This document shows positions 3,635 to 8,071 of a stretch of 11,250 nt of DNA, piece after piece. How positions within the stretch are numbered: position 1 is the stretch's first letter; each line of letters opens with the position of its first letter. The position numbers and the translations under genes were made by a program. The stretch is from the NCBI GenBank assembly GCA_946543095.1, contig CAMNLO010000024.1, forward strand, positions 1 to 11,250. The letters run 5' to 3'. This stretch comes from an uncultured bacterium (GTDB taxonomy: Bacteria; Bacillota; Clostridia; Lachnospirales; Lachnospiraceae). A model generated the notes under the pieces. The model did not search any database and was not told where the DNA came from. It worked only from the letters and a program-made list of their open reading frames with translations.

Positions 3635-3680
3635 ATAGAAGAATATGGAAAGGCCTTGTATTCCACGGAAGGAGAACACT

Positions 3681-4487
3681 ATGGCGGATATCAGGACACT
3701 AAACAGCAGTTCCCCGCAGATCAGGCCTGAATTATCACCTGTCGGAAACACGGAGGTGAAGACAGGCTCCCGTCCTGAAAACGCGGACCTTACGGAAGAG
3801 AAAAAGAAACAGCTGCCGGATCTGATCTCCGTTTCTGATGACGGGGACACGGTGCAGGCCGGTCTGATCGCAAGACTGAGGCTTGGGGATGACAGACAGG
3901 GCCGGGTGATCCCTCTGGGAAAAGATGCCGGAGAGGACCCGGTTCAGACGGGCAGGAGGAAGCTGCAGGGATCGGTTTCGGAACAGGCAGCTTTGTCCGG
4001 TGCCGCTGATGTGGAGAAGCCGGAGGTCACAAAGGACCCGGAGACCGGCAGGATCGAGCTGAAGGTCCCCGGGAATGAGGAGGATCCTCTTCAGGCCCGG
4101 AGAGAGAGGGAAGAGCGGGAGGAAGCCAGGGAAGAGGCCGAGGTAAAGCGGGCGGAGATGACCAATTTCGTCGGCTACACGGACTCCGAGCTGGAACAGC
4201 TCTATTTAAAGGGCGAGATCTCAAAGCAGAAATACGATCAGGAGATGGAGTCCAGAAAAGAGCAGGAGGAGGCTGAAGCCGGGGATGCCAGGGAGTTCAG
4301 CAAAGAACTGGGCAGCATGAGCGCATCGCAGAACGCGGGAGAGCGCCTGGCCCAGGTAATGAACGCCTTTTCGCCGGATGCCAATAACACGGTTTCCCCT
4401 GAAGACCGGATCCGGGCCATTCAGGCTGCGGAGCAGGGCAGGCAGCAGGAAGACGAGCGGAACATGACCGCAGTCACCACTGCGTGA
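3681..4487 (+). CDS. Highly charged hypothetical protein with a SHOCT-like segment
   Basis: I do not recognise this 268-aa protein as a named family. It has no signal peptide, membrane segment, Cys or Trp, and is dominated by Glu, Arg, Lys and Gln, so it is predicted to be soluble and largely disordered or helical. Residues 1-60 are polar. Residues 140-160 form a dense E/R run likely to be a charged single helix or coiled coil. Residues 168-190 (TDSELEQLYLKGEISKQKYD and after) resemble the short helical SHOCT-type motif (LxxLyxxGeIsxeeYe). The C-terminus holds another helix (EDRIRAIQAAEQGRQQ). The ATG at 3681 is preferred because AAGGAG (3669-3674) lies 6 nt upstream; an ATG at 3645 in the same frame lacks an SD. 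It has its own promoter, diverges from dhuI, and has no terminator-like hairpin before purE. Function is unknown. Confidence 0.7.
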   Translation: MADIRTLNSSSPQIRPELSPVGNTEVKTGSRPENADLTEEKKKQLPDLISVSDDGDTVQAGLIARLRLGDDRQGRVIPLGKDAGEDPVQTGRRKLQGSVSEQAALSGAADVEKPEVTKDPETGRIELKVPGNEEDPLQARREREEREEAREEAEVKRAEMTNFVGYTDSELEQLYLKGEISKQKYDQEMESRKEQEEAEAGDAREFSKELGSMSASQNAGERLAQVMNAFSPDANNTVSPEDRIRAIQAAEQGRQQEDERNMTAVTTA

Positions 4488-4606: not shown

Positions 4607-4627
4607 CATGTGTTTGGGAGAAACAAT

Positions 4628-5125
4628 ATGTCAGAGATAGCCATTGTCATGGGGAGTGATTCGGATCTTCCCGTAATGTCCAAAGCAGCAAAGCTCCTGG
4701 AGGAGTTCGGAGTCAGCTTTGAGATGCGGATCATTTCCGCCCACAGACAGCCGGAGGAGCTGATCGCGTACACGGGCAGGGCGGCGGAGCGCGGCATTAA
4801 GGTCATCATCGCCGGTGCGGGCCTTGCGGCAGCCCTTCCGGGCATGTGCGCTGCTGTATTTCCCCTGCCCGTCATCGGAGTGCCCCTGGAAGCCGGGCCC
4901 CTGTCCGGACAGGACGCACTGTATTCCATCGTGCAGATGCCCCCCGGAGTCCCGGTGGGCTCAGTGGGCATCGGCGGTGCGGTAAATGCGGCGCTTCTGG
5001 CCCTGCGGATCCTTGCGGTTTCCGATGCCGGCATTCTGGAAAAGCTGAAAGCCTATCAGAAGAGACAGGCCGAAAAGGTGGCGGAAAAGGACAGAAGGCT
5101 TACGGAAAACGGCTATCAGGCATAG
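4628..5125 (+). CDS. purE: N5-carboxyaminoimidazole ribonucleotide mutase (PurE)
   Basis: This 165-aa cytoplasmic enzyme of de novo IMP synthesis makes CAIR from N5-CAIR, or directly from AIR and CO2 if it is class II. Visible motifs are the phosphate-binding [10 protein letters not shown] (8-17), the ISAHR segment with catalytic H39, and [21 protein letters not shown] (96-116). At the loop where class I enzymes usually read GGAAHLPGM, this protein reads GLAAALPGM (65-73), so the canonical His is Ala. The following [11 protein letters not shown] segment is about two residues shorter than in Bacillus or E. coli. I believe this is a clostridial subgroup rather than damage. The ATG at 4628 has GGGAG at 7-nt spacing; an in-frame ATG at 4610 lacks an SD. 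It is the first gene of the pur operon, 31 bp before purM. Confidence 0.94.
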
Positions 5126-5156: not shown

Positions 5157-6194
5157 ATGAGTGAGAAATTAGATTATAAAGCAGCCGGCGTGGATATCGA
5201 GGCGGGCTACCGCAGCGTCGAACTGATCAAAGAAAGTGTCGGGACCACCCTCCGCCCCGAGGTACTGGGGGGGCTGGGAGGCTTTTCCGGCGCCTTTTCC
5301 ATGGCGGCGGCAAAGGGCATGAAGGAGCCCGTGCTCCTGTCCGGCACGGACGGCGTAGGCACCAAGCTGAAGCTGGCCTTTCTGCTGGACAGACATGACA
5401 CCGTGGGCATCGACTGTGTGGCTATGTGCGTAAACGATATCGCCTGTGCGGGGGGAGAACCCCTGTTTTTTCTGGACTATATCGCCTGCGGCAAAAACGT
5501 GCCGGAGAAGATCGAAAAGATCGTAAGCGGCGTGGCGGCGGGCTGCAGGGAGGCGGGGGCCTCCCTCATCGGCGGAGAGACAGCGGAGATGCCCGGGTTT
5601 TATCCCGTGGAGTAATATGACCTGGCAGGCTTTGCGGTGGGTCTTGTGGAAAAAGAGGAGATGATCACCGGGGAATCCGTGAAGGAGGGGGATGTGCTTT
5701 TGGGCATCGCTTCCTCCGGAGTCCACAGCAACGGTTTCTCTCTGGTGCGGAAGGTCTTCAACATGACGGAGGATTCCCTTGCCAGATACTATCCAGATCT
5801 GGGAAGGAGCCTGGGAGAGGAGCTGATCACTCCCACAAAGATCTATGTGAAGGCCCTGAAGGCCGTAAAGGATGCGGGGATCCGCATCAAGGGCTGCTCC
5901 CATATCACGGGAGGCGGTTTTTACGAGAATGTTCCCAGAATGCTCCCGGAAGGAGTGGAGGCTGTGATCCGCAGGGATTCCTATGAGCTTCCCCCGGTTT
6001 TCGAACTTCTGAGAAAGACCGGGAATCTGGATGAAAGGACCATGTACAACACCTATAACATGGGCATCGGCATGGTGCTGGCCCTTGCCCCCGAGGATGC
6101 GGACGGGGCGGTGAAGGCGCTGGAAGCGGTTTCCGAAAAGGCATTTCTCATCGGAGAGTGTAAAAACGGAGAGAAGGGAGCCAGACTGTGCTGA
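5157..6194 (+). pseudogene. purM: Phosphoribosylformylglycinamidine cyclo-ligase (PurM, AIR synthetase) interrupted by an in-frame TAA
   Basis: PurM closes FGAM to AIR with ATP. The full frame 5157-6194 is 346 codons, the normal PurM length, and is free of frameshifts. Residues before the break include [22 protein letters not shown], and [14 protein letters not shown]. Residues after it begin YDLAGFAVGLVEKEEMITG and continue in the same frame through GVHSNGFSLVRK and HITGGGFYENVPRML to the end. Codon 153 (5613-5615) is TAA where relatives have an acidic residue (PV[D/E]EYDLAGF), so one base change, GAA to TAA, explains it. The two fragments would be 152 aa and about 190 aa; the first lacks most of the fold. 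SD AAAGGA (5145-5150) precedes the ATG. The end overlaps purN by 7 nt. Since the rest is well conserved, a recent mutation or sequencing error is more likely than old decay. Codon reassignment is unlikely, because kduI and dhuI end in TAA. Confidence 0.9.
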
Positions 6195-6784
6195 GAGTCC
6201 TGGTGCTGGTCAGCGGCGGAGGGACAAACCTGCAGGCGATCCTGGACGCTATAGACGAAGGAAAGATCACAAACACGGAGATCGTGGGAGTCCTGTCCAG
6301 CTCTCCAAAGGCCTATGCCCTGGAGAGGGCAAAAATCAAGGAAATCCCCACCACCGTGGTGGCGCCGAAGGCCTATTCCTCCAGAGCGGAATTTGAGCAG
6401 GCACTGAAGGAAGCCATTGATTCCTATCAGCCGGAGCTGATCGTTCTGGCAGGCTTTCTGGTGGTGCTGCCGGAGGCTATCGTGAAGGCCTATCCCCGGA
6501 GGATCCTGAATGTGCACCCCTCTTTGATCCCTTCCTTCTGCGGAAAGGGCTTCTACGGACTGAAGGTCCACGAAGAGGCGCTGAAGCGGGGAGTTAAGGT
6601 GACGGGGGCCACGGTCCATTTCGTGGATGAGGGAACGGACACCGGTCCCATTTTATTTCAGAAGGCTGTGGAGGTCAGGGACGGGGACACCCCGGAGCTC
6701 CTCCAGAGGCGGGTGATGGAAGAGGCGGAATGGATCTTGCTGCCCCAGGCCATCCACTGCATTGCAAACGGAGAAATTCACTGA
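6188..6784 (+). CDS. purN: Phosphoribosylglycinamide formyltransferase (PurN, GAR transformylase)
   Basis: PurN transfers the formyl group of 10-formyl-THF to GAR, the third step of purine synthesis. The 198-aa product has the phosphate-binding VSGGGTNLQAI (8-18). Its catalytic set is N108 and H110 in NVHPSLIPSF, plus D151 in HFVDEGTDTGP, which aligns with E. coli D144. SFCGKGFYG (116-124) is the usual insertion of clostridial PurN. The start is GTG at 6188, with AAGGGAG (6174-6180) 7 nt upstream, and it overlaps the purM end by 7 nt. Such coupling makes purN translation depend on ribosomes finishing purM, so the purM nonsense codon could lower PurN as well (inference). Confidence 0.95.
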   Translation: MLRVLVLVSGGGTNLQAILDAIDEGKITNTEIVGVLSSSPKAYALERAKIKEIPTTVVAPKAYSSRAEFEQALKEAIDSYQPELIVLAGFLVVLPEAIVKAYPRRILNVHPSLIPSFCGKGFYGLKVHEEALKRGVKVTGATVHFVDEGTDTGPILFQKAVEVRDGDTPELLQRRVMEEAEWILLPQAIHCIANGEIH

Positions 6785-6796
6785 CAGGAGGACTGG

Positions 6797-8071
6797 ATGA
6801 AGATACTGATCGTGGGCGGAGGCGGCAGGGAGCATGCCATCGCGCAGGCCCTGAAGAGAAGCAAAAGAGCGCCTGAGCTTTTCTGCGCCCCGGGCAACGC
6901 AGGCATCGGGGAGATCGCGGAGTGCGTGCCCATCGGCGCCATGGAATTCGAAAAGCTGGCGGAGTTTGCCATCCGGAAACAGATCGATCTGACTGTGGTG
7001 GGGATGGATGATCCCCTGGCAGGCGGGATCGTGGACGTTTTTGAACAAAAGGGCTTAAGGGCCTTCGGACCCAGAAAGAACGCGGCCATCATTGAGGCCA
7101 GCAAGGCCTTTTCCAAGGATCTGATGAAGAAGTACGGCATCCCCACCGCTTCCTATGAGACCTTTCAGGATGCGGCGAAGGCAAAGGCATATCTGGAGAC
7201 CGCGCCCTATCCCATTGTGTTAAAGGCGGACGGCCTGGCCCTTGGGAAGGGAGTCCTGATCTGCAATACAAAGGAGGAAGCCCTTCAGGGCGTTTCTTCC
7301 ATTATGGAAGAAAAGCAGTTCGGAGACGCCGGAAACCGGCTGGTGATCGAGGAATTCATGACCGGCAGAGAGGTCAGCGTCCTGGCCTTTGTGGACGGGA
7401 AGCATATAAAGACCATGGCCTCCGCCCAGGACCACAAGCGGGCCGGAGACGGTGACACGGGCTTAAACACCGGCGGCATGGGGACCTTCAGTCCCAGCCC
7501 CTTTTATACGAAAGAGATCGAGGAATACTGCAGCTCCCACATTTTCCTGCCCACAGTGGCAGCCATGGAAAAAGAGGGCAGGCCCTTCCGGGGAGTTTTG
7601 TATTTCGGCCTGATGTTAACGGAAAACGGTCCGAAGGTGCTGGAATACAATGCCCGCTTCGGGGATCCGGAGGCCCAGGTGATTTTGCCCAGGCTGAAAA
7701 CGGATCTTGTGGATGTGATGGAAGCCTGCATCGACGGGACGCTGGATCGGATAGAGCTGGAGTTTGACGAAAAAGCGGCGGTCTGCGTGGTGGTGGCCTC
7801 CGGGGGATATCCCGTGAGCTACAAAAAGGGCTATCCCATTCAGGGGCTGGACTACTTTCAGGATAAGACCGATGAATTCTGCTTCCATGCGGGAACGAAG
7901 GCCGGTGAGGGAGGCGAGATCCTCACAAACGGCGGCAGGGTCTTAGGAGTGACGGCCCTGGGGGCGGATCTGAAGGAAGCCAGAAAGAACGCCTACGAGG
8001 CGGTGAAGCATGTCAGCTTTCAGGACTGCTTCTATCGAAACGATATCGGAAAAGCCATCAACGAAGCCTGA
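6797..8071 (+). CDS. purD: Phosphoribosylamine-glycine ligase (PurD, GAR synthetase)
   Basis: PurD joins glycine to phosphoribosylamine with ATP, the second step of IMP synthesis. The 424-aa product is full length. It has the N-terminal GGGGREHAIA (7-16), the ATP-grasp lysines in KADGLALGKGVLI (143-155), the hallmark DHKRAGDGDTGLNTGGMG (212-229), and FGDPEAQ (288-294), which is part of the metal/ATP site. The C-terminal domain (GGYPVSYKKGYPI, GGRVLGVTALG) is intact. AGGAGG (6786-6791) sits 5 nt before the ATG and 1 nt after the purN stop, so the gene is clearly in the same operon. No clear terminator follows; only a short CCCGGCCGGG palindrome lies just after the stop. Other purine genes must be elsewhere, because the next gene is unrelated. 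Confidence 0.96.
   Translation: MKILIVGGGGREHAIAQALKRSKRAPELFCAPGNAGIGEIAECVPIGAMEFEKLAEFAIRKQIDLTVVGMDDPLAGGIVDVFEQKGLRAFGPRKNAAIIEASKAFSKDLMKKYGIPTASYETFQDAAKAKAYLETAPYPIVLKADGLALGKGVLICNTKEEALQGVSSIMEEKQFGDAGNRLVIEEFMTGREVSVLAFVDGKHIKTMASAQDHKRAGDGDTGLNTGGMGTFSPSPFYTKEIEEYCSSHIFLPTVAAMEKEGRPFRGVLYFGLMLTENGPKVLEYNARFGDPEAQVILPRLKTDLVDVMEACIDGTLDRIELEFDEKAAVCVVVASGGYPVSYKKGYPIQGLDYFQDKTDEFCFHAGTKAGEGGEILTNGGRVLGVTALGADLKEARKNAYEAVKHVSFQDCFYRNDIGKAINEA

Follow-up and report, generated by a model that had tools for sequence, protein, structure and literature searches.

Pseudogenes with a single nonsense codon and errors in the consensus sequence both occur in draft assemblies. Inactivated purine synthesis genes are also known from gut bacteria: one report (PMC11804010) describes a nonsense mutation at Gln34 of purM among penicillin-selected variants of Akkermansia muciniphila, as well as truncation of purF in three database strains and a mutant purL in another. 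The purM frame described here, which likewise contains a nonsense codon, lies in a window of 11,250 bp. The window, i.e. the whole stretch of DNA analysed, is an entire contig (C24) of a draft genome of 370 contigs (2,040,108 bases) that is 68.46% complete.

The interrupted purM frame and its neighbours

The initial annotation had described a purM frame of 346 codons without a frameshift, in which both halves resemble PurM and codon 153 is TAA, and this was confirmed by matches of the two pieces to TIGR00878 in register (Table 1). When the genome was searched with this profile reading through stops, a match of 426.4 bits was found over positions 1–331 of 332, with '1 TAA' inside. The read-through frame passes the curated cut-off of 236.35 bits, whereas each piece alone falls below it. 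The matches to the two AIRS domains lie on either side of the stop, PF00586 on the first piece and PF02769 on the second. Under translation table 11 the product ends at 152 residues, and PurM is not encoded as one polypeptide. The damage to the frame consists of that single stop, and neither a frameshift nor further disabling changes were found in it. A run of 344 purM-like codons with one interruption is more than chance.

Table 1. Features of the purM region of the window
Feature	Coordinates	Strand	Details
purE, 5-(carboxyamino)imidazole ribonucleotide mutase, intact	4625..5125	+	TIGR01162, 203.4 bits (cut-off 149.6)
purM frame including the stop	5157–6194	+	346 codons (345 and terminal TGA)
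purM 5' part	5157..5615	+	152 codons and TAA; TIGR00878 positions 1–144, 193.8 bits; PF00586 positions 14–96 of 112
In-frame TAA, purM codon 153	5613..5615	+	
purM 3' part, same frame	5616..6194	+	192 codons and terminal TGA; TIGR00878 positions 148–331, 216.7 bits; PF02769 positions 1–151 of 156
purN, intact, overlaps the end of purM	6188..6784	+	TIGR00639, 205.6 bits (cut-off 150.1)
purD, intact	6797..8071	+	TIGR00877, 548.4 bits (cut-off 288)

The neighbouring genes of the operon had also been reported as intact, and purE, purN and purD were all found to score above the curated cut-offs. The start of purE (ATG 4625) was picked by eye; the ORF list begins at GTG 4610. Further upstream, a 280-residue open frame on the same strand (coordinates 3645–4484) had no match in NCBIfam at 0.001 or in Pfam at 0.01, and a search of the window against Rfam at the gathering score gave 0 matches.

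purM in relatives and in the protein database

The position of codon 153 is occupied by a sense codon at 110 of 110 relatives' purM loci, encoding Glu in 107, Asp in 2 and Ala in 1, in keeping with the acidic residue that had been expected there. Alignment of these relatives revealed no interrupted locus, none of the 110 (L002–L111) having an internal stop inside its best tblastn match, among loci that are the best-scoring of longer lists (30 of one and the best 80 of 593 in the other) and are therefore biased towards uninterrupted genes. The best 80 of the 593 have a top identity of 74% and are mostly from Lachnospiraceae drafts, with the organism's own records perhaps excluded. In the profile search that reads through stops, a stop was present in one of the 55 rows above the cut-off, that of the source draft itself (G000).

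The view that purM is held by most bacteria as a single copy was borne out in the family, as a match at E <= 1e-60 was found in 389 of 397 genomes, including 316 of the 320 of good quality, with two matches in 16 of the 389 matching genomes (our own count), some of these matches perhaps being fragments of a single gene. None of the 150 rows listed for family purM matches, out of the 389 genomes matching, contained a stop. As four of the 320 good-quality genomes have no match at this threshold, there may be habitats in which the gene is not required. One of the four, G295, a single contig estimated at 99% complete, is a possible natural purine auxotroph of the same family.

Searches of the protein database scored the best ~8000 candidates (7999 for the 152-residue query), and 120 matches were listed for each. 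The X-bearing query retrieved an intact PurM of 345 residues with 99% identity (P0003), encoded on one contig of 1979 bp, and a second PurM match (P0004) with 93% identity. P0003 is identical to the window product at 341 of 345 residues, and differs at residues 151 (V/L), 153 (stop), 281 (V/I) and 324 (A/S). Its three further differences mark P0003 as the allele of another strain, and alone it does not correct the window. Among the best 7999 candidates, the 152-residue product (P0122) has one member sequence, from one contig of 11,250 bp. Thus, a near-identical intact allele exists and the interrupted allele is known solely from the window contig. The possible loss of PurM that had been raised for this strain must be qualified to this extent, as with such an intact allele in existence any loss would not be species-wide.

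In-frame stops in the source draft

The use of stop codons was examined in 624 long coding frames from 120 of the 370 contigs (1,094,049 bases; longest sampled contig 19,085 bp), of which 278 end in TGA, 234 in TAA and 112 in TAG, consistent with the earlier observation that all three serve as normal stops. The same 120 contigs were scanned for in-frame stops between coding-like stretches, and 27 candidates were identified, 17 with a start preceded by a Shine-Dalgarno (SD)-like word within 25 codons and 10 without. The purM stop has the top score among the 10. One candidate with an SD-like start (L125) outscored purM and appears by eye to be an ordinary gene junction. By eye, only two of the 27 are clear interruptions of a single gene, purM (TAA) and a GGDEF gene (TAG), the other eight of the 10 being gene junctions or weak frames.

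The GGDEF gene, predicted to encode a diguanylate cyclase, lies on contig C17 (L129:278-1777) and includes one in-frame TAG at 1364; a relative of its product with 81% identity (P0243; 485 aa) contains a GGDEF domain. The 347-residue product that ends at this stop (P0242) is listed on two contigs, the longest of 13,131 bp compared with 12,277 bp for C17. This stop would thus have been assembled on two occasions, though perhaps from a single sample, and stops in this draft are not necessarily errors. A scan for frameshifts in the first 60 contigs gave a single weak candidate (L149:7705-7709).

Stop-making substitutions in purM number 106 of 3096. If both clear stops were errors, two in ~943 kb of long frames would correspond to ~6 substitutions per 100,000 bases, an estimate that cannot discriminate between errors and genuine mutations.

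Readings of the stop codon and comparison with known systems

Two explanations of the TAA are considered most likely, a wrong base in the assembly and a loss-of-function mutation of very recent origin, in preference to a new reading of the code. A consensus error is given a probability of about 50%, which supports the initial annotation in naming sequencing or assembly error as the main alternative to a real stop, and a wrong consensus base is slightly more likely than a true sequence. Under this reading, a wrong base would have entered the consensus at the TAA through thin coverage or the merging of strains, and the organism would make an ordinary full-length PurM; we infer both the thin coverage and the wrong base. 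It is favoured by the fragmentation of the draft into 370 contigs, by a product seen once, by the lack of other damage to the frame, by the intact allele found elsewhere and by the absence of internal stops from the relatives' loci examined. However, that allele, with its further differences, comes from another strain, and the relatives' loci were chosen by a best score that favours uninterrupted genes. The occurrence of the GGDEF product on a second contig also argues against error, and the two stops in ~943 kb could equally be ordinary pseudogenes.

The second reading, nearly as well placed though somewhat short of even odds, is that the stop is real and marks a very young loss-of-function allele of purM. 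The gene would then yield a 152-residue fragment without the C-terminal domain, and the organism would live on salvaged purines. Null alleles of pur genes are known in gut bacteria (PMC11804010). The absence of a purM match from four good-quality family genomes, the second listing of the only other clear in-frame stop on the 120 contigs and a putative transporter of the Xan_ur_permease family (PF00860; 304.3 bits) encoded in the draft point the same way. Against a young null allele, the purM frame is otherwise undecayed, purE, purN and purD are whole, and the interrupted allele was seen once. The draft's partial matches to other genes of the pathway, i.e. purF (profile positions 1–356 of 432, reaching a contig end), purH (202–511 of 511, under the cut-off) and FGAM synthase (2–560 of 1239, under the cut-off), also have no internal stops.

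It is very improbable that the interrupted gene still functions, with readthrough of the TAA or a restart downstream supplying enough PurM or a PurM in two pieces. The first codon of the PF02769 (AIRS_C) match is 176, which is residue 23 in the second piece and lies after ATG 5661 (codon 169), so a restart at this ATG would keep the whole match, and an SD-like AAGGAGG lies at the usual distance before the in-frame GTG 5694 (codon 180), which is just past the 25-codon limit of the scan. However, residues 153–168 or more would be missing after a restart at either of these codons, the SD-like word of ATG 5661 is only 1 base upstream, and no in-frame start within 25 codons behind the stop has an SD-like word at the usual distance. 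As for readthrough, TAA ends 234 of the 624 long frames, and no suppressor tRNA was found by ARAGORN among 5 tRNAs on 60 contigs, though this last argument is a weak one.

A split gene is also opposed by the position of the break. The PF00586 match in the first piece stops at 96 of 112 positions, and in the predicted fold of P0003 (mean pLDDT 78.4, 50–62 around the break; the best solved relative of PurM is 2z01) residue 153 falls in a loop before the strand 155–165; the break therefore lies inside the N-terminal domain and not at a domain border. The arrangement was found in none of the relatives examined. Among the 120 database matches listed, P0129 and P0144 were judged by eye to end, like P0122, at the homologue of residue 152, with P0182 and P0211 ending one residue later and P0217 one earlier, which might favour a split gene. 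However, P0129 (from a contig of 1593 bp) and P0144 (1182 bp) may have been cut by contig ends. As a stop and a contig end are indistinguishable in such records, and the ranking by score may favour short proteins, nothing firm follows on recurrent truncation at codon 153. An out-of-frame ATG (5617) with GGAG upstream is located just after the TAA and opens a 15-codon frame ending in TGA (5662–5664), which overlaps the in-frame ATG 5661. This overlap could couple a restart to an intact C-terminal AIRS piece, but a genuine interruption with a two-piece PurM produced in this way is more remote still.

An intact second purM, located in the third of the genome that the draft lacks, would cover the loss. 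This is just as improbable as an interrupted gene that still functions, although the draft is only 68% complete and some family genomes have two matches, a few perhaps being fragments of a single gene. The draft has one purM match by profile search, and a DNA search of it found no second copy other than a short piece with 78% identity on C235. The possibility of a second purM that had been raised earlier is thus answered in the negative for the assembled part of the draft, and for that part only. Recoding of the stop codon was rejected, given the same frequent use of TAA at the ends of long frames and the small number of clear in-frame stops on the 120 contigs.

If the TAA is an artefact, as we slightly favour, it warns against inferring auxotrophy from an isolated stop in a draft assembly without the reads. 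If it is real, it would be a further recent case of lost purine synthesis, a kind of event already known in a gut bacterium (PMC11804010).

Compared with PurM as defined by TIGR00878 (phosphoribosylformylglycinamidine cyclo-ligase), the window frame is alike in having both pieces in register and in its location beside purE, purN and purD, but differs by one in-frame stop at codon 153. As in the pseudogenes and consensus errors of other drafts, the stop is isolated, occurs on a single contig and is accompanied by no other damage, and no differences from these were noted. With the A. muciniphila mutant (PMC11804010), it shares a single nonsense codon in the purM gene of a gut bacterium. However, the A. 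muciniphila mutation affects residue 34 and was obtained from a parental strain under penicillin selection, whereas the stop in the window comes from one draft contig.
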